DNA of 64,000 bases. Source: Bacteroidetes bacterium 2013_40CM_41_45. GTDB lineage: Bacteria; Bacteroidota; Bacteroidia; AKYH767-A; 2013-40CM-41-45. The DNA is taken from NCBI GenBank assembly GCA_002215675.1, contig NGFH01000004.1:186001-250000 (forward strand). The letters are read 5' to 3'. The notes beneath the pieces were generated by a model. The model was not told the origin of the DNA. It did not search any database and was given only the letters and a program-made list of their open reading frames with translations. The position numbers and the translations under genes are program-made. How positions within the stretch are numbered: position 1 is the first letter of the stretch; each line of letters opens with the position of its first letter. Shown in pieces: positions 33,081 through 42,200 of the stretch.

Positions 33081-34112
33081 ATGGAACCCACACAAGCTCC
33101 GGAAAAATTCACTTCCAAAGACCTTATCACCGACCAGGACGTACGCTGGTGCCCCGGCTGCGGAGACTACTCCATCCTCAAGCAGGCGCAAACCATTGTG
33201 CCCGACCTTGGACTGGCGCGCGAAAATATTGTTTTCATTTCCGGTATCGGATGCTCATCACGTTTTCCGTATTACATGGAAACATACGGCATGCACAGCA
33301 TTCACGGGCGGGCAACGGCAGTGGCAAGCGGGCTTAAAGCATCGCGCCCCGAGCTAAGCGTATGGATTGTTACCGGTGACGGTGACGGACTTTCCATCGG
33401 TGGCAACCACATGATTCATTTGCTCCGCAGAAATTTTAATGTCAACGTGCTGCTGTTCAACAACCAGATTTACGGATTGACCAAAGGACAATATTCACCT
33501 ACGTCCGAAGAAGGAAAAGTCACCAAGAGCACACCCATGGGCTCGGTCGACCATCCGTTCAATCCTATTGCGCTTTGCCTGGGTGCTGACGGCACCTTTG
33601 CCGCGCGCTCTATGGACAGAGACCCCAAGCACCTGCAAGCCATGCTGCGCAGGGCATACGACCATAAGGGCACTTCGTTCCTCGAGATATACCAGAACTG
33701 CAACGTGTTCAACGATGGAGCTTTTGAAGTTTATACCGAGAAGACGAGCAAGAAAAACGAAACACTTTTCCTCGAGCACGGCAAGCCGCTCATCTTTGGC
33801 GACACCGGCAACAAGGGCATCAAGCTGGACGGCTTCATTCCCGTAGTGGTCGACATACCCGAGGGCAGCTCACCCAACGACCTGTGGATACATGACGAGC
33901 GCGACCGCCTCAAAGCAAATATACTGGCGCGCTTTTTCGACAACCCCTCAAAGCCCAACCACTACCCGCGTCCGTTCGGAGTGTTTTACGTGGAAGACCG
34001 CTATTGCTACGAAGACCGCATGGGCGACCAAATAACCCAAGTGCTCTCACAAAAAGGAAAAGGCAAACTTGACGACCTCCTCCGCGGAAAAGAAATCTGG
34101 GAAATTCAATAG
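33081..34112 (+). CDS. korB: 2-oxoglutarate/2-oxoacid:ferredoxin oxidoreductase, beta subunit
   Basis: A 343-residue TPP-binding subunit. WCPGCGDYSILKQAQ holds cluster-ligand-type cysteines (CPGC). GIGCSSRFPYYMETYGMHSIHGRA and VTGDGDGLSIGGNHMIHLLRRN include the TPP/Mg motif GDGD, followed by LLFNNQIYGLTKGQYSPTS. A C-terminal RPFGVFY segment matches the KorB form of Bacteroidota. The last ~60 codons use GC-rich codons more than neighbouring genes. The stop is followed at once by GATGTTAGAC words and the repeat block that opens the accessory island. Confidence 0.94.
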   Translation: MEPTQAPEKFTSKDLITDQDVRWCPGCGDYSILKQAQTIVPDLGLARENIVFISGIGCSSRFPYYMETYGMHSIHGRATAVASGLKASRPELSVWIVTGDGDGLSIGGNHMIHLLRRNFNVNVLLFNNQIYGLTKGQYSPTSEEGKVTKSTPMGSVDHPFNPIALCLGADGTFAARSMDRDPKHLQAMLRRAYDHKGTSFLEIYQNCNVFNDGAFEVYTEKTSKKNETLFLEHGKPLIFGDTGNKGIKLDGFIPVVVDIPEGSSPNDLWIHDERDRLKANILARFFDNPSKPNHYPRPFGVFYVEDRYCYEDRMGDQITQVLSQKGKGKLDDLLRGKEIWEIQ

Positions 34113-34483
34113 TTAGATGTTAGACGCCTGCCTGCCATTGCTATGGCTGTGAAGTGGCAGGCAGGTTGGACGTTAGACGTTTTTTGTAGCCCAACATTTT
34201 TTTCTCTCTCCCCCGAGTACTCGGGGTTACCGTCCTGCTTTCGGGTCGCGGGAGCTCCCCTCAATCAGGGCTAGCTGTCAGCAGCTGGAAGTCTCACAAC
34301 CTCTCCCCAAGCACTGTCATGCTGACGAAGGTCAGCATCCCCTCGTGAATGCTATGGTATCACAAATTGTGAGACCATAAATTATGTCACCCCTATGGGG
34401 TTCGATGATACACGTGTTGGGGAGTACTATAATCATGTCGCCCCTTCGGGGCTTAATATTTTTATCAAGCCCGTAGGGCTGAC

Positions 34484-34580
34484 ATGTTTGTAGCCCCGCC
34501 CTTTAGGGCGGGGTCAAGCAATCCCACAGAACTATTCCCCCTCTCCGTCAGCTGACGGAGAGGGGGTTAGGGGGTGAGGC
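34484..34580 (+). repeat. TTTGTAGCCCCGCC / CCCCCTCTCC composite repeat, left copy
   Basis: It holds the hairpin CCCCGCCCTTTAGGGCGGGG, then CAATCCCACA, then ATTCCCCCTCTCC with an inverted GGAGAGGGGG arm, ending GGGGGTGAGGC. The right copy (38070-38157) is the reverse complement with few changes. A partial copy in the same orientation as this one is at 35841-35893. Confidence 0.75.
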
Positions 34581-34610
34581 ATGGTTCCCTCAACAATCAT
34601 TTTTAAAATT

Positions 34611-34618
34611 TATATTTG
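34611..34618 (+). promoter_or_regulatory. Candidate -7 element of the antitoxin gene (TATATTTG)
   Basis: It fits TAnnTTTG and lies 10-19 nt before the two possible ATG codons. No -33 TTG at the expected distance; the upstream DNA is repeat. Confidence 0.4.
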
Positions 34619-34637
34619 CAGTAATAAAATGCGAAAC

Positions 34638-34859
34638 ATGAATATCACTTCAGTAAAGCTAAATCTTATCGAGTGGCTCATTCGTGTAAAGGATGAAACT
34701 ATTTTAAACAAAATAGAACTCCTGCGGAAAACGAATGTTGAGCGTTGGGATGAACTTACTCCCGAACAACAGGCAGAAATTGAAGAAGCATTTGCAGAAC
34801 TGGACAAAGGGAATGGAGTCGGGCATGAAGAAGTAATGTCCAAGCTTCGCAAGAGATGA
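34638..34859 (+). CDS. Antitoxin-like protein of a type II toxin-antitoxin module
   Basis: A 73-residue protein from the ATG at 34638 (an ATG at 34629 is also possible). MNITSVKLNLIEWLIRVKDE, then ERWDELTPEQQAEIEEAFAELDKGNGVGHEEVMSKLR matches the addiction-module component style, widespread in Bacteroidota, that is paired with RelE/ParE toxins: an N-terminal helix, a W-D-x-L-(S/T)-P-x-Q turn, then a G-x-G-x-x-H-E-E-V-M end that contacts the toxin. Its stop overlaps the next start (ATGA), as usual for such pairs, but the toxin is truncated. Confidence 0.7.
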   Translation: MNITSVKLNLIEWLIRVKDETILNKIELLRKTNVERWDELTPEQQAEIEEAFAELDKGNGVGHEEVMSKLRKR

Positions 34860-34957
34860 AAGTTACCTGGTCTTTGAAGGCAGTTGCCTCGCTTCAAAAA
34901 CTTGTAACTTTTATAGACGGCAAATGGGGAAACAAACAGGCAGACAAAAAATTCTAA
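34856..34957 (+). pseudogene. Truncated RelE/ParE-type toxin remnant
   Basis: A 33-residue reading frame beginning at the ATGA overlap with the antitoxin. MKVTWSLKAVASLQKLVTFI then KWGNKQADKKF matches the first strand and helix of RelE/ParE toxins (family form: K-V-x-W-S..A...L..I..YI...W....A). Full toxins have about 95-100 residues; the strands with the catalytic or gyrase-contacting residues are missing. The frame ends at 34957, three bases past the end of the opposing dinD gene at 34954. This suggests that the arrival of dinD removed the toxin's 3' part. Below normal gene-calling length. Confidence 0.6.
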
Positions 34958-35799
34958 TTCTTTTTTGACTTTTTTACTTCTTTCAAAATCTTTTTTTCTT
35001 CTCCTTCGAGCTTGCGCTGCACCTTTTTCACATCTTCAGCAGGTGGTAATGATTCAGGCTTAACACCTCTTTCATTCAGCATTTTTCTAACAGCAATATT
35101 ATTATCAACATGCTCCTCTGTAATTTGCTGTTCACCTTTGAGGTCTTTTTCAGAAACATTATGACTTGTAAGTTCTGTCGCGAAATCTTTTGCTTTAATA
35201 GTCAGTGTTGGAAGAAAATCCGCGAGGGGCCTGTTTTCTGGTATCCCCAATTTTCTTTTCATATCGTTCGTACTGAATCCTCCAAACAATGCCTGGTCTC
35301 CTTTGGATCGAATTATAGCAAATCCTTTATCGTCAACCCCACGCTCATAAATTATTCCGGATAACTTTTTTTCTGATTTAGATAACCTTTCTCTCGCGGT
35401 CACGCGAGCAACATCCAGCAAACGCTGTTCGATGATTTCCTGCTTTCGGGTCTGCACTGCAAAATAGGTTTGCGCAAACGCGATTTCATTTTTTGACGGA
35501 TCACCATTTTGACCGATAAGATAACAAGCATACCTTGTAAGCGCATAATCAGGTATTTCTCTTTGAGAACCGCTACCAAGTGCTACCATTTTCCCGGTTT
35601 CGGCAAAATGGTCAGATACATTTGCCCCGGCATTGTTACAAGCGGTTTTTGACTTTTCAATAACATTTAAAAAGTTATCCCATTTACTGTAGCCTAAAAT
35701 TTCCTGGAGTTCACGTGCACTCCAGCATTCAACGCCTTTATAAACGTAGCAGGCATGTTCAAATTTTTCAAACAGTTCCCTGATGAGTTCTTTTTTCAT
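34954..35799 (-). CDS. dinD: DNA damage-inducible protein D
   Basis: A 281-residue DinD homologue. The start EKFEHACYVYKGVECWSARELQEILGYSKWDNFLNVIEKSK is typical (BRO-N/antA-like part with W-S-A-R-E-L). ALTRYACYLIGQNGDPSK, then FAQTYFAVQTRKQE and the region AIIRSKGDQALFGG match the family too. In E. coli DinD is SOS-induced and inhibits RecA filaments in vitro. The C-terminal 50 residues are very Lys/Glu-rich. It opposes the toxin remnant at its 3' end. Upstream (35898-35935) is a 17-bp palindrome that could be an operator, although it does not resemble a known LexA box. Confidence 0.88.
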   Translation of the reverse strand: MKKELIRELFEKFEHACYVYKGVECWSARELQEILGYSKWDNFLNVIEKSKTACNNAGANVSDHFAETGKMVALGSGSQREIPDYALTRYACYLIGQNGDPSKNEIAFAQTYFAVQTRKQEIIEQRLLDVARVTARERLSKSEKKLSGIIYERGVDDKGFAIIRSKGDQALFGGFSTNDMKRKLGIPENRPLADFLPTLTIKAKDFATELTSHNVSEKDLKGEQQITEEHVDNNIAVRKMLNERGVKPESLPPAEDVKKVQRKLEGEEKKILKEVKKSKKN

Positions 35800-35840
35800 A
35801 TCTCAGGTTATTATAACCCCCTATTGATTTAGCTAAAGTA

Positions 35841-35893
35841 AACAATCCCACCACATCATTCCCCCTCTCCACCGGAGAAGGGGTTAGGGGGGC
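35841..35893 (+). repeat. CAATCCCACA-CCCCCTCTCC repeat, partial middle copy
   Basis: AACAATCCCACCACATCATT then CCCCCTCTCC, a short loop, GGAGAAGGGG and TTAGGGGGG. It lacks the GTAGCCCCGCC half found in the left and right copies. Same orientation as the left copy. Confidence 0.65.
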
Positions 35894-35897
35894 GTTA

Positions 35898-35942
35898 CTA
35901 GGGAAAACCCTAATTCGTATTAGGGATTTCCCTAGTTTTTTT
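35898..35942 (+). terminator. 17-bp inverted repeat followed by T7 (orphan terminator or operator)
   Basis: CTAGGGAAAACCCTAAT and ATTAGGGATTTCCCTAG pair over 17 positions with a single mismatch around a TCGT loop, and seven T follow on the plus strand. No plus-strand gene ends just before it. It may be the leftover terminator of a lost gene, or an operator of dinD (99 nt from its ATG). The rest of 35800-36048 holds repeats only. Confidence 0.5.
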
Positions 35943-35978
35943 GTCCACAAATTTTGTGTAAAATCAAAAAATTACATT

Positions 35979-36005
35979 TGTCAGGACTAAAGTCATGATA
36001 GCACA
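35979..36005 (+). repeat. TGTCAGGAC hairpin family, copy B
   Basis: TGTCAGGACTAAAGTCATGA then TAGCACA: like copy A at 5404, with two changes in the right arm, so the stem is weaker. It ends 43 nt before the ATG of the 92-residue gene. Confidence 0.6.
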
Positions 36006-36048
36006 TAGAACGATACTAATTAATTTAAACGAATAAATTTCAAAAGCC

Positions 36049-36327
36049 ATGTATCAAGACACGTTTTTTCATACGCTATCTGACGGAATAAAAGCCAAGT
36101 TTACAATTAGAGACAGAATAATTGAAGATGAAGTTTTCTACTATGCGAATTTCGTAAACACTGGGCTTGATTTTTATTCAAACTTTTCGGAGATTGAGAA
36201 AGAACTTTATTTAGGAATGGAAATTACTGATGGCAATCAGCACTCTATCAATTATCGTGACCCAGCACGTTTAAAAAATGACATACTGACTAAATATGGT
36301 AGTGTGTGGCTGATAACTGAAAAGTAA
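36049..36327 (+). CDS. Hypothetical protein, first gene before the DUF262-HEPN pair
   Basis: A 92-residue, acidic, probably soluble protein (YQDTFFHTLSDGIKAKFTIRD, YANFVNTGLDFYSNFSEIEKELYLGMEI, GSVWLITEK). I do not recognise a family. No signal peptide or catalytic motif. The start is an ATG just after a TGTCAGGAC-type repeat. The next gene on the strand begins 92 nt later, so the protein may be a small accessory part of that system, for instance an immunity or adaptor protein; this is inference only. The DNA is AT-rich, as in the two genes after it. Confidence 0.5.
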   Translation: MYQDTFFHTLSDGIKAKFTIRDRIIEDEVFYYANFVNTGLDFYSNFSEIEKELYLGMEITDGNQHSINYRDPARLKNDILTKYGSVWLITEK

Positions 36328-36418
36328 TGAAAACTACCCCGGTTTGTTTTCACTCTCCGATTTAACGTTAGCACAAGACATAAACTTATTATTTGAACAG
36401 TCAGAAATTAAAAATAAT

Positions 36419-37516
36419 ATGAAAGAAGTAAATGAACAAGAATTACCAGAAGAATCAATCGTAGACCAAGACGAACTGGACGATGAGGTTGCTTATGTGC
36501 AATATGACATTACCAGTTATGGAGCGGACTATACTGTTGACGGACTTGTTAAGCGCTTGAAAAAAGGCGACATTTTTATTCCACCATTTCAGCGCGATTA
36601 TGTTTGGAATCATGCAGAAGCGTCTCGCTTAATTGAATCGCTCCTGCTTGGGCTTCCAATTCCAGGAATTTTTTTGGCAAAAGAATCAGACAATAAGCTT
36701 TTAATAATTGATGGACAACAGCGCCTGAAGTCGCTGCAATTTTTTTATGATGGTTTTTTTAATCCTAAACCCGAACAAAAAACTAAAAGAGTTTTTAAAT
36801 TAATTAAGGTTCAAAAAAAGTTTGAAGGACTTACTTATGAAAAACTTTCAGATAGCGATAGAATAAAGATTGATGATTCAATCATTCACGCAACAATTAT
36901 TAAGCAGGAAGCTCCTGCTGAAGATAACACAAGTGTTTATCATGTGTTTGAACGATTGAATACTGGAGGTAAAAAATTGGCATCGCAAGAAATTAGAACA
37001 GCAATTTATCATGGGTCATTAAATAATTTAATTGGCACGTTAAATAAATTTGAAGATTGGCGTGAACTGTACGGACCAACAAGCGCACGATTAAAAGACC
37101 AAGAACTTATCCTAAGATTTTTTGCTGTGTACTATAATTTTAATTCTTATGCGAAACCTATGTTTGAATTTCTGAATAAGTTCAATTCTAAAAAACGAAA
37201 TGCTTCAGAAGATGTTTTAGAGGAATACAAAGAAACATTTAAAGATACAATCACATTCATTAAAGAAAATCTAGGTAAGGCAGCGTTTCGTCCCGATAGG
37301 TCTTTGAATGTTTCTGCGTTTGAAGCTGTAACAGTTGGCGTTGCCAAACTGCTAAAATTGAAGGACCGAGAAATTAATATTAGTAAATTCAAAACCGCTC
37401 ATCAGAAGTTATTCTCTGATTCAAGTTTTATTAATGCAATCACACGTGGAACTTCAGATGAAACCGCCTTTGCAGAAAGACATAAACTTGTTGATATGTA
37501 CTTTTCGGAAACATGA
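36419..37516 (+). CDS. DUF262-domain protein (ParB/Srx-like, GmrS-type N-terminal domain)
   Basis: A 365-residue protein starting at the ATG at 36419; a TTG at 36344 extends the frame without family likeness. The DUF262 motifs are intact: PFQRD at 56-60 (IPPFQRDYVW), DGQQR at 98-102 (IIDGQQRL) and FERLNTGG at 177-184. The QR-x-L and DGQQR motifs are the nucleotide-binding/hydrolysis site in GmrSD and BrxU-type proteins. No HNH-type DUF1524 C-terminal domain is present, although GmrSD-type nucleases have one; the C-terminal half (about 200-365) is helical. The stop overlaps the HEPN gene's start (ATGA), so the HEPN protein may supply the missing nuclease. Probable defence function. Confidence 0.82.
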   Translation: MKEVNEQELPEESIVDQDELDDEVAYVQYDITSYGADYTVDGLVKRLKKGDIFIPPFQRDYVWNHAEASRLIESLLLGLPIPGIFLAKESDNKLLIIDGQQRLKSLQFFYDGFFNPKPEQKTKRVFKLIKVQKKFEGLTYEKLSDSDRIKIDDSIIHATIIKQEAPAEDNTSVYHVFERLNTGGKKLASQEIRTAIYHGSLNNLIGTLNKFEDWRELYGPTSARLKDQELILRFFAVYYNFNSYAKPMFEFLNKFNSKKRNASEDVLEEYKETFKDTITFIKENLGKAAFRPDRSLNVSAFEAVTVGVAKLLKLKDREINISKFKTAHQKLFSDSSFINAITRGTSDETAFAERHKLVDMYFSET

Positions 37517-38007
37517 TTAGGAACGAGGAACTCAATAAACAATCCGAGAAAATTTTAAAGTTAATTGAGACTGCAGAAAAATCATTTGAAGAAGATGATG
37601 AAATGCGTTCTCACTTAGCAAAATATATTTGCATCCTGTGCTCTGGCTTTTTAGAAAATGCAATTAACTTGCTTTATACGGAGTATGTCAAGTCGGAAAC
37701 CTCAAGTGACTCGGTCATTTCATTTTCCTCAGGGATATTAAAGAAAGTTCAAAATCCCAATGCGTCAAGATTTCGTGACATTGCAAAAAGTTTTAAGCCT
37801 GAATGGGAGCAACCGTTAATAGATTATATGCAAATTGACGACAGAGCGTCTGCCGTAAATTATATCATTAAAGACCGACACAAAATTGCTCACGGAAAAG
37901 ATTCAGACATTACACTCATAAGAATTAGAGAGCATCACCTAAAAACAGTGGAGGTTATTAAATTTATAGAATCACAATGTTTTCCATTAGGGCACAAAGG
38001 GAATTAA
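37513..38007 (+). CDS. HEPN-domain protein (MAE_28990/MAE_18760-like predicted RNase)
   Basis: A 164-residue all-helical protein. It has the HEPN Rx4-6H catalytic motif, R122-H-K-I-A-H127, in KDRHKIAHGKDSD, after long amphipathic helices (LAKYICILCSGFLENAINLLYTEYV). HEPN proteins act as metal-independent RNases in toxin-antitoxin, abortive infection and CRISPR-associated systems; this fits the RiboL-PSP/MAE-type branch. It overlaps the DUF262 gene by 4 nt. A two-gene unit is therefore likely, with DUF262 as sensor or regulator and HEPN as effector. This is inference; HEPN subfamily placement is from memory of its motif and length. Confidence 0.75.
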   Translation: MIRNEELNKQSEKILKLIETAEKSFEEDDEMRSHLAKYICILCSGFLENAINLLYTEYVKSETSSDSVISFSSGILKKVQNPNASRFRDIAKSFKPEWEQPLIDYMQIDDRASAVNYIIKDRHKIAHGKDSDITLIRIREHHLKTVEVIKFIESQCFPLGHKGN

Positions 38008-38069
38008 TCAAGAGCCAACTTACTATCAGTTAGAATTCCCACCGCTCACAACTAGCCCCGAAATTAAAT

Positions 38070-38157
38070 GCCTCACCCCCTGACCCCCTCTCCAGAGGAG
38101 AGGGGGAATTGTGTTGTGGGATTGTTTACCCCGCCCTAAAGGGCGGGGCTACAAACA
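38070..38157 (-). repeat. TTTGTAGCCCCGCC / CCCCCTCTCC composite repeat, right (inverted) copy
   Basis: On the minus strand it reads TGTTTGTAGCCCCGCC, TTTAGGGCGGGG, CAATCCCACA, ATTCCCCCTCTCC, AGAGGGGGTCAGGGGGTGAGGC in parts. It mirrors the left copy at 34484-34580. A CACTCCTACGGAGTG hairpin follows at 38161-38175. Together these fill most of 38008-38215. Confidence 0.75.
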
Positions 38158-38194
38158 TTTCACTCCTACGGAGTGATTAAAGGTTTAATACATT

Positions 38195-38219
38195 TGTCCT
38201 GGACGAAAGTTCTGAATGC
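38195..38219 (+). repeat. TGTCAGGAC hairpin family, copy C
   Basis: ATTTGTCCTGGACGAAAGTT then CTGAATGC and TAGAATG. It runs into the first possible start codon (38216) of the next gene, which suggests that the true start is the ATG at 38225. Confidence 0.55.
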
Positions 38220-38224
38220 GTAGA

Positions 38225-39133
38225 ATGAAAATTGATTTTGAACAAGATTTAAAAACTGAACTTTATTTAGCGTTTAATGACTACGGTGTTAAAATTCCAA
38301 TAAGGAAAGCTACACGTGAGATGTTATTGGATTATTTAACAATCTTAAAAAAATTAATTCCAATAAAAGTTCGTAAGGTATTTTATGCTCCAGAATTTGA
38401 AGCGTCCTTACCAAATCATCCTAAGAAAAGAGAAATTGAATATATCAGATTACTATTTGAAACTGGAAAAAATGTAAATTTTTTTCAGAGTAAAAAACTT
38501 TTTCAATCACAGTTTCACGATCACTTATTATATGAATGGAACATATACCATTTTCACTTATCCTTACAACATGAGAAAAAGAGTCGCTTTGCAAAACAAA
38601 CTGATTTGTTATTGTTTATTTTCATTGCAGATGATTTGGTAGTATTTTTAGGTACAGAAAAGCATCATCGGGGAATATTTGGAGACGATAAATGGTTACA
38701 AATGCTTCATGACCATTTTCCGGAAATGATAAAGGAATATGAAGCTAAGGAAATTAAAGATGTATCGCCTCAAATTAATTCCATAGAACGACAGACATTA
38801 TGGGACAAAGGTTACACTTTAGGGTTTACTAAAATAAAAGACAGGGTTTACTTTTCCCCTGGAATTGGAAGGACTACAAGTGCGCACAGTACTCTTGTCG
38901 TTAAGACTGCGGGGGAAATTATTAGATGGTTGCATGTTATCCACGAACAATTTATTTCAGAAGGCAATGCAATTTGTAAATATTTAAACTTTGCTCCTGA
39001 AAAAGCAGAGTTTAAGTTACGCCTTGGAAATATTACTTTAGAGATTGCTGAAAATTATTCTCAAAAAATTGTGCTTACTTACAATCAAGTTTTAGATATC
39101 GAAAAGATAAGTAATAAGAATTCCAGTCCTTAG
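38225..39133 (+). CDS. Hypothetical protein of the korB-smc island
   Basis: About 302 residues from the ATG at 38225; the ATG at 38216 lies in a repeat. I do not recognise the family. No signal peptide or membrane segment. The centre is rich in His and aromatic residues: YEWNIYHFHLSLQHEK, TDLLLFIFIADDLVVFLGTEKHH and FGDDKWLQMLHDHFPEMI; such clusters could form a metal or nucleic-acid site. The N-terminal helices (RKATREMLLDYLTILKKLIP) and the C-terminal strands (FKLRLGNITLEIAENYSQKIVL) suggest two domains. It is AT-rich, unlike korB or smc, and is the last gene of the island. It may be a toxin or nuclease, but this is a guess from context. Confidence 0.55.
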   Translation: MKIDFEQDLKTELYLAFNDYGVKIPIRKATREMLLDYLTILKKLIPIKVRKVFYAPEFEASLPNHPKKREIEYIRLLFETGKNVNFFQSKKLFQSQFHDHLLYEWNIYHFHLSLQHEKKSRFAKQTDLLLFIFIADDLVVFLGTEKHHRGIFGDDKWLQMLHDHFPEMIKEYEAKEIKDVSPQINSIERQTLWDKGYTLGFTKIKDRVYFSPGIGRTTSAHSTLVVKTAGEIIRWLHVIHEQFISEGNAICKYLNFAPEKAEFKLRLGNITLEIAENYSQKIVLTYNQVLDIEKISNKNSSP

Positions 39134-39134
39134 G

Positions 39135-39241
39135 GCATAGCCCCGATTGCAGCGAGCTCCCGCGAGCGAAAAGCGGGACGATAGGATGAGTGAATTAAAA
39201 TGTTGGGCTTCTAAAACGTCTAATCTCTAAGGTCTAACATC
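39135..39241 (-). repeat. GCCCAACATTT...GGGGCTATGC repeat family, copy 3 (right edge of island)
   Basis: Read on the minus strand, directly after the smc stop: GATGTTAGACC, TTAGACGTTTTAGAAGCCCA, ACATTTTAATTC, CGTCCCGCTTTTCGC, TCGCGGGAGCTCGCTGCAAT, CGGGGCTATGCC. The left edge (34116-34275) has the same blocks in the same order in the opposite orientation, so the island is bracketed by inverted copies. Confidence 0.75.
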
Positions 39242-42200
39242 AAACAACCTCTGCCAAATCCACCGGCACCACTTGTGTTACGCCTTGCTCTACCATGGTG
39301 ATGCCGTAGATGATTTCGGTGGCTGCCATGGTGCGTTTGTTGTGAGTGATGATGATGAACTGCGAGTTTTCTGAAAACTTGCGGATGATGTTGTTGAACT
39401 TGTCGATGTTGCTGTCGTCAAGCGGGGCGTCTACCTCATCGAAGATGCAGAAGGGCGCGGGCTTTAGAAGATAGATGGAGAACAGCAGCGCGATTGCGGT
39501 AAGCGTTTTTTCTCCTCCCGAAAGCTGGCTGATGCTTAACGGGCGTTTGCCTTTGGGCTGCGCCAGGATGTGTATGTCTGATTCGGTTGGGTCTTCGGTG
39601 TTGGCGATGATGAGGTCGCACGTGTCTTCATCGGAGAACAGCGAGCGGAACACGCGGATAAAGTTTTCGCGTATAGCGCGGAATGCTTCCATGAATTTTT
39701 CTTTTGCCGTAGCGTCAATTTCGGCAATGGTTTCCATGAGCGATACGCGGGCATTGGTTAAATCGGTTTGCTGCCCGATGATGAAATCATACCGCTGCTT
39801 TATTTCGTTGAACGCTTCCACAGCCATGGGGTTTATTTCACCGTAGTTGTCGAGCGAGTTTTTAATGCGCGCGATTTTTTCGCGCAGTTCTTCCTCGGTA
39901 AATTCGGCTGACGGCTGGCGGTTGAGCAAGTCGTCAATCACGATATTGAACTCAACACTCAACCGTTCTTTGAGTGATGCAAGCTGCAGCTTTATTTCAT
40001 TCACTTTTTCTTTGATGCCGTTGAGGAGCGCATCGGTGTTTTCGCGCTGCTGGCGCAGGGCGCGGATGTTTTGCTCAATGGAATCGCAGTCGGCACGGGA
40101 GGAATAAAATTTGGTTTCTGTTTCTGCCACTTTTTTATCCAGTGATTCTTTTTCAGTATAAAGAACATGCAGCTGCGAATCATAATCGGTAGTGCTGCCG
40201 AAGATTTCAGCGATTCGTTTCTGTGTTGTTTCCAGCTCTGCAGCGTTGGTCTTAATAGTTTCCTGCAGTGTTTCCATCAGGTTATGCTTAAAGCCAAGGT
40301 CGCGGATGATGGTGGAAATTTTATTCTGCTGCTGCAGGCACCGGATGTTCATTTCGTTCAGCTCATCGTTGAGCCACGCGAGTTCCTTTGATGAAGATGA
40401 AACCGTTTGCTGCAGCGATAGCTTTTCTTTTTCTGCTACATTGAATTTATGGCGCAGCACGTTCAGCGTTTCTTCCACGCCACCGGCTTCGGTAACGGAA
40501 GTCTGTTCCAAAACTTTTTGCTGGGCGAGGAGGGAAGAGATGTGTCCATCGCTATTGGTAACGTCATCGTGCAACTGTTCTGCCTTTCCGACCAAGGTGG
40601 AATATTCGCTGTTCAGTTTTCCGGCTTCTTCAAGCAGTATCGTTTTGCGGTCGAGAAGCTTTTCAGTTTCTTTTCTTAGATCCTGCTGCTTCTGTAAAAG
40701 CTTATCGCGGAATGCTTTGTTTCTTTCCGCCTGCTTATTCAGCATTTCAATTTCTGATTCCAGCGCTTCGAGGTTCTTTATTCTGCCGATGCGCTTGCCG
40801 TCAAACAATCCCACCGAGCCGCCTGCAAGAGAATATTTAGTGCGGCAGTATTTTCCGTTTTTGGAAATAAAAATTGCATTAGGGTGTTGCTCTGCATCGA
40901 ACTCCAGTGTTTGTTCTTCATCGCTTGAAACGATGTACACATTGCGTAATAAATAACTGCACAGCGCTTTATATTTTGAATCAACATCAATTACTTCAAG
41001 AGCGTGAACGCAGTCAGAAATTTTTTCCGCTTCGTTTTGTTTTTCATTTTCAAAAGCAGAAAGAATAAAAAAGCTTGCTCTGCCTTTGGATGCTTCGGTT
41101 AAAAGGTTCACACATTTGCCTGCATCTTCTTTTGATTCCACCACAAAATAATTCATGAACGGCTCCAGGAAATTTTCAAGCGTATTGCGGTACTCGTGCC
41201 TGCAGGAGAGGATATCCGAAAACAACGGTGCATTGCTTAGAGCGGAAGAATTTTTCTTGAGATATCGCAGTGATTCAGGATATCCCTCCATGTTTTCAAT
41301 CAAACTCTTGGTCAGGTTGTATTCATTCTGGCGGGCATCGGTTTTGCGCGATGCTTCCATCACTGAATCAACAGCAGTCTTGAGTTCCGTTTCAACGTTT
41401 GCAATGGATTCACTTAGGTTTGAAAAATCGGTTTCAAGCTTCGAAATTTCTTTTTCCTTTTCGTCTTTCAGATGCAAAGCATCGTCTGCTTTTTTCTTCA
41501 GCGACTGCAGCTCATTTTCTTTCTCCTCATTTTCTTTTTGGATGCGCTCTATTTCCAGCTTCAGAGAAGAAAGTCGCACTTCCGATACGGCATGTGTTTT
41601 TTCTGTCTCGTGAATCTCCGCCTGGATTGCAAGAGTTTCTGTGGTTTTATGGTTCAGGTTTTCCTGAAGTTCGCTGTGCTCGTCTTTTGCTCCGTCTGTT
41701 TTTTCTTTTTGCTTTTTGAGAGATTCATTCAGCTCAACAAGAACTTTTTCTTCCGAAATCTTTTCGTTTTCAATTGCTTTAATATTGTCCTCAAGCTCGG
41801 TAACCGATGTTTTATCTTTCTGTAACTGTAAATTAAGCTGCGCTTCTTTATCCTGCAAAAACAACAAGCGTTCATTCGATATTTTTTTATCGTTTTCCTG
41901 CTGGCGGATGTAATTTATTTTTTCATTCAGCTCCTGCTGCGATTGCGATAATGCTTTTTCATTCTCCAGCGATTCAAGCTTTTGCTTTTGGAGTAATGCT
42001 TCTGCCTCGGTGATTTTTGTTTCGCTTCCGGTTTTTTCGTCCAGTAGCTTTTCTTCCTGGGAACTTAATGCTTCAAAGGTTTGTCCTGATTCCTGCAGTG
42101 ATTGCACAGCTAGCTCTGTGCTGAATTCTTTGTACTGCTCTTTTAGTTTTTTGTAACGCTCTGCCTTTTTTGCCTGGCTTTCGAGCGTTTTCATATTGCC

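Follow-up and report, generated by a model that had tools for sequence, protein, structure and literature searches.

A DUF262-HEPN gene pair in a Bacteroidota genome shares its two-gene make-up with the anti-phage system PD-T4-2

The stretch of DNA analyzed here (the window; 64,000 nucleotides of contig NGFH01000004.1 from Bacteroidetes bacterium 2013_40CM_41_45) carries a gene for a DUF262 protein directly followed by one for a HEPN protein, which raises the question of whether the two form a defense unit and of what kind. Our check of open reading frames and motifs returns both genes as first described, in tandem on the forward strand, and their features are collected in Table 1. The DUF262 protein would comprise 365 residues from the ATG at 36419 or 390 from a TTG at 36344, and the lengths of its homologues make the ATG the likelier start. 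Its stop codon overlaps the start of the HEPN gene, as had been noted earlier, and the shared ATGA suggests that translation of the two is coupled.

Table 1. Positions within the window of the DUF262-HEPN pair, its motifs and the adjoining features
Feature	Position	Strand	Remarks
Leader gene, 92-aa orphan	36049..36327	+	Adjoins the pair; probably coding; not conserved as a component
DUF262 (GmrSD_N/ParB-Srx fold) gene	36419..37516	+	Presumed NTP-dependent sensor/regulator without nuclease domain
PFQRD motif, DUF262 residues 56-60	36584..36598	+	Q58 and R59 invariant
DGQQR motif, DUF262 residues 98-102	36710..36724	+	Presumed NTP site; no variation among 26 aligned relatives
FERLN motif, DUF262 residues 177-181	36947..36961	+	F177, R179 and N181 invariant
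ATGA, DUF262 stop/HEPN start overlap	37513..37516	+	
RiboL-PSP-type HEPN gene	37513..38007	+	164 aa; presumed RNase effector
RHKIAH, R122-x4-H127 of HEPN	37876..37893	+	Presumed catalytic motif
Left dispersed palindromic repeat	35838..35891	+	Inverted relative to 38076-38129 (54 nt, 87%)
Right dispersed palindromic repeat	38076..38129	-	Includes terminator-like hairpin 38084-38106

The first-pass annotation had described a DUF262 protein with intact motifs and no C-terminal HNH (DUF1524) domain, and both parts of this description hold. PFQRD, DGQQR and FERLNTGG (residues 177 to 184) are all present, and among 26 aligned relatives the invariant positions are Q58, R59, D98 to R102, F177, R179, and N181. 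Pfam gives GmrSD_N alone (PF03235; 3e-31), confined to residues 43 to 197, with no match to a DUF1524/HNH domain in the protein and none to a separate GmrD-type partner. In the AlphaFold2 model, calculated like that of the HEPN protein for a single chain, the C-terminal half is wholly helical (pLDDT, 87.5); the closest structure is BrxU (Foldseek, 2.7e-5; Z, 9.8), a likeness best read domain by domain, the whole-chain rmsd being large. SspE, DndI, ParB, and sulfiredoxin are further structural matches, and BrxU is the only match in the PDB by sequence (0.0056). The model and the motifs together show a predicted ParB/Srx-fold protein with an intact set of NTP-site motifs. With GmrSD, BrxU, SspE, TgvAB, and GrwAB it shares the NTPase domain and the QR, DGQQR, and FxxxN motifs, BrxU being the closest solved fold to the model, but it lacks their DUF1524/HNH DNase, and its presumed effector is a separate HEPN protein.

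That second protein is recognized by Pfam as HEPN_RiboL-PSP (PF18735; 2.4e-13, 50.9 bits against a gathering cutoff of 28.4). Its RHKIAH site, numbered correctly from the start as R122 and H127, occupies residues 122 to 127, and the pattern R[NH]xxAH turns up in 0.1% of shuffles of the protein, so that its presence is not a matter of chance. An alignment of 22 partners, whose columns average 24% identity, leaves R122 as the sole invariant residue, with H127 (at least 90%) and F94 nearly so; all 22 match PF18735, as do further partners scanned. The model is of high quality (pLDDT, 95.2; pTM, 0.89), and its top matches, HEPN proteins for the most part, are YutE, HEPN/MNT toxins, TT1696, sacsin HEPN, and Csm6 HEPN, at Z scores of 7.7 to 9.2, a range that helical folds reach easily; the Foldseek E values are not significant. 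A profile search of the PDB by sequence returned only a ferritin (0.14). Fold model and alignment together show what is predicted to be a HEPN-fold protein whose R-x4-H dyad is under selection. Nothing in the partner is better conserved than this dyad, from which we argue that it is catalytic.

The same observation bears on a type IV restriction-like reading, according to which modified phage DNA would be nicked by DUF262 itself or by the pair, with HEPN serving as a noncatalytic or accessory DNA/RNA-binding subunit. The modeled DUF262 fold does match BrxU and SspE, and ParB/Srx proteins have been reported as DNA nickers (in work cited in PMC12839542). We nevertheless hold this reading to be improbable, given a DUF262 protein devoid of an HNH/DUF1524 domain and a partner whose best-conserved feature is the R-x4-H dyad.

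Relatives were gathered from plasmids, phages, viral contigs, genome contigs, and related genomes, mainly by DUF262 similarity alone, and a few loci were added through searches with a HEPN profile or the PD-T4-2_B model. A partner was called where the C-terminal half of a protein of 140 to 300 residues contained a HEPN-type R-x4-H, a motif present there in 2% of shuffled proteins. Such a gene lies directly downstream in 67 of the 114 dereplicated DUF262 loci, a count to be read with the knowledge that loci added by HEPN searches carry the gene by construction and that the largest collection was seeded with an alignment of HEPN-paired DUF262 proteins only. In 12 further loci an ATPase gene directly follows the DUF262 gene, and most of the remainder are truncated contigs, partial matches of short length, or long DUF262 proteins without such a partner. 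At 38% identity or more and with a complete next gene, the HEPN gene is found in 17/17 dereplicated loci, the window included; two other loci at this level are cut by a contig end, one of them within the HEPN gene.

The co-occurrence of the two genes is thus conserved, and the arrangement of the genes is tight: a spacing of -4 is the commonest among the 67 pairs, and -4 or -1 accounts for 23. Evolutionary distances of the two proteins correlate over 30 pairs (r = 0.79; equaled in 0 of 2,000 shuffles), from which we conclude that the genes stayed together, matching trees being expected of any linked gene pair and no proof of contact or of a complex. The HEPN side diverges faster (60 versus 46%, 54 versus 37%, and 50 versus 38% identity for DUF262 and HEPN in three comparisons), which is why the HEPN protein made a poor query, retrieving almost nothing from viral contigs and plasmids, and why the DUF262 query was needed. 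No convincing fused DUF262-HEPN protein was found among the long DUF262 proteins. Judged by sequence, the pair is shown to be real and conserved, its two genes moving as a unit across several phyla by inheritance and by transfer. Larger HEPN partners of about 210 to 280 residues accompany more distant DUF262 clades, which include a DGSQR subgroup (L007, L010, L021, and L078 to L096), and they appear to be additional branches of the two-gene make-up.

The first-pass annotation knew of no experimental study of such a pair, and this point is superseded. PD-T4-2, a two-gene operon from E. coli ECOR65 composed of DUF262 and PF18735 HEPN domains (PMC10952713) like the pair in the window, is reported to protect against T4, and its deletion from this native host to restore plaquing (Vassallo 2022; PMC9519451). 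Before that, a survey had recorded RiboL-PSP-HEPN genes in operon with ParB (Anantharaman 2013; PMC3710099), which is the same HEPN family with an R-x4-6-H site and the same operon association; where the survey treats this family, the record is computational, without experiment.

How close is the pair in the window to PD-T4-2? A bona fide pair (L009/L047), with PADLOC scores of 8.3e-157 for PD-T4-2_A and 6.9e-52 for PD-T4-2_B, likewise matches PF18735 and has R-N-x3-H, but its identity to the window is only about 30% (DUF262) and 20% (HEPN), and it reads DGLQR where the window reads DGQQR. Profile comparison of the two gives an E value of 2.9e-40 for DUF262 and, for HEPN, 3.6e-5 at 71% probability. 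The window DUF262 protein matches PD-T4-2_A at 4.2e-53, below its NsnA score. Its HEPN partner has no match to PD-T4-2_B (PDLC04028-30) at an E value of up to 0.1, nor to any other PADLOC model. In the DUF262 tree, the window falls into a clade of 19 rows (starred) without L047, a long branch elsewhere in the tree whose exact place is unsure. The pair therefore differs from PD-T4-2 in having no PD-T4-2_B match and in not grouping with bona fide PD-T4-2_A; it would represent the same make-up in a separate clade, to which function may be carried over by analogy of architecture.

In PADLOC, the DUF262 protein in fact scores best as NsnA of Menshen (Millman et al. 2022; 1.1e-70, across nearly the full length). 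Membership in Menshen, as this top match would have it, is ruled out by the partner: NsnB is an AAA/DUF3696 ATPase, whereas the window has a HEPN gene in that place. A true NsnA/NsnB pair was found at another locus (L005), and 9 of 10 ATPase-partnered DUF262 proteins fall into a separate clade of the tree.

With moderate confidence, we favor the reading that the pair is a horizontally acquired, two-gene anti-phage unit working like E. coli PD-T4-2, by architectural analogy. The split model put forward earlier, a DUF262 sensor or regulator with a HEPN effector in a defense context, is well supported by the conserved pairing, the matching trees, the fold models, the catalytic dyad, and the defense neighborhood. 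In GmrSD, BrxU, and SspE, DUF262 senses modified DNA and switches a nuclease domain by NTP turnover (PMC10952713, PMC12137116, PMC11411939), and it is by analogy with these that we picture, as the likely mechanism, an NTP-driven sensor that first keeps a HEPN RNase in check and later sets it free. The two proteins would form a complex in which DUF262 holds the RNase inactive. Infection would be detected by DUF262, most plausibly, as in those three systems, through a chemical feature of phage DNA; detection would drive NTP binding or hydrolysis at the DGQQR/QR/FxxxN site, upon which the complex would rearrange. Cleavage of tRNA, rRNA, or mRNA by HEPN, probably acting as a dimer, would follow, and this would stop phage production or arrest the infected cell. 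The leader gene would be dispensable for all of these steps.

Elsewhere in this DUF262 family the partner is a different one, the ATPase of Menshen, and so direct control of a nuclease by DUF262 is not a given. A broader idea, which we offer tentatively and think somewhat doubtful, is that, within the modification-sensing GmrSD family, the DUF262-HEPN pairs are the branch that targets RNA: the NTP switch that reads modified phage DNA and triggers a DNase in GmrSD and BrxU would trigger an RNase in these pairs, answering a mark on DNA by cleavage of RNA. If true, one DUF262 sensor would drive exchangeable effectors, namely, an HNH DNase, a HEPN RNase, and an AAA/DUF3696 ATPase.

The distribution of the pair is wide. 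It occurs in Bacteroidota and in one MAG each of Acidobacteria, Ignavibacteriales, and Desulfobacterales; its plasmid carriers come from Alpha- and Gammaproteobacteria, Actinomycetota, and Bacillota, and it is also found in an Akkermansia phage and on viral contigs; conjugative plasmids are among the carriers of its homologues. The DUF262 gene is absent from all same-family and same-order genomes sampled, and the closest relative found (L130) belongs to another family of the same phylum (DUF262, 60%; HEPN, 46% identity). GC content is 33 to 36% at positions 36000 to 39000, versus mostly 39 to 55% around them. This distribution, the mobile carriers, and the low GC content point toward horizontal acquisition.

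Frequent carriage on plasmids is also what would be expected of a toxin-antitoxin module, with a HEPN toxin and a DUF262 antitoxin serving mainly to maintain the element rather than to sense phages. Two overlapping genes in an operon that opens with the presumed inhibitor would fit such a module, and the modeled HEPN fold is nearest to HEPN/MNT toxins and YutE. The putative antitoxin, however, is a protein of 365 residues with an invariant NTP site, unlike the MNT proteins known as antitoxins of HEPN; Pfam finds no MNT or DNA-binding domain in it, nor was an MNT domain seen in the neighboring genes scanned. In addition, PMC9519451 describes a likewise composed system that was selected for phage defense. 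We regard the toxin-antitoxin reading as unlikely, and it is only partly distinct, since toxin-antitoxin-type and defense roles overlap.

The neighborhood suits the anti-phage reading. The earlier proposal to look for defense neighbors bore fruit directly downstream of the HEPN gene, where a gene at 38216-39133 (+), likewise of low GC content, matches PD-T4-7 in PADLOC (4e-37). PD-T4-7 has been grouped with toxin-antitoxin-like abortive-infection systems (Vassallo 2022), and two candidate defense units, the pair and a PD-T4-7 homologue, would lie side by side. Just upstream of the cassette, a gene at 34954-35799 (-) encodes a DinD-like Bro-N protein (NCBIfam PRK11525, 1.6e-109), which is also the PADLOC candidate PDC-S13 (4.6e-121).

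A dispersed palindromic repeat, present at nine places in the genome, lies at 34517-34546 and at the two positions in Table 1, that is, before orf 34581/dinD, before the leader, and, inverted, after the HEPN gene, so that successive cassettes are separated; its copies may mark where cassettes were inserted. We considered a transposon with terminal inverted repeats and rejected it, the 54-nucleotide arms being copies of this dispersed repeat. No clean empty site was found in seven genomes of the family, which keep korA-korB but in which the SMC and island genes do not follow, and Rfam gave no match within 34000-39300.

The 92-residue leader gene had been proposed as a third component. It is probably a coding gene, as its codon usage indicates (+0.11 per codon versus -0.31 [standard deviation, 0.10] for shuffles); it shares the strand of the pair, ends 91 bases before the DUF262 ATG, and falls within the same repeat-bounded, low-GC stretch. 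Yet searches of 61 related genomes, the viral contigs, and all DUF262 loci gave no homologue, Pfam, PADLOC, and PHROGs gave no match, and the closest relative has no equivalent upstream of the pair. A three-gene system including it is very improbable, and the leader is better regarded as a passenger unrelated to the pair or as an accessory specific to the lineage.

The two-gene make-up is already known, and what is added here is a branch of it that PADLOC does not recognize. Of the 22 HEPN partners sampled, just 5 match a PD-T4-2_B model; with the HEPN side this poorly covered and the DUF262 side scored as NsnA in the absence of an ATPase, loci of this kind can be missed or mislabeled. Close copies of a sister-branch pair are carried by E. 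coli plasmids (12 of 5,426 complete genomes, all on plasmids) and offer a direct laboratory route to a PD-T4-2-type mechanism. This route and the gap in the catalog on the HEPN side are the useful points of the finding.

A second short DUF262 gene without a nuclease domain is present elsewhere in the same genome (contig C1, about 118.9 to 123.5 kb). Together with a Ser/Thr protein kinase gene, it directly follows SspC- and SspD-like phosphorothioation genes (PADLOC, 6.5e-146 and 4e-92), in the place expected of SspE, and this arrangement is possibly an Ssp variant with a DUF262 and kinase effector.
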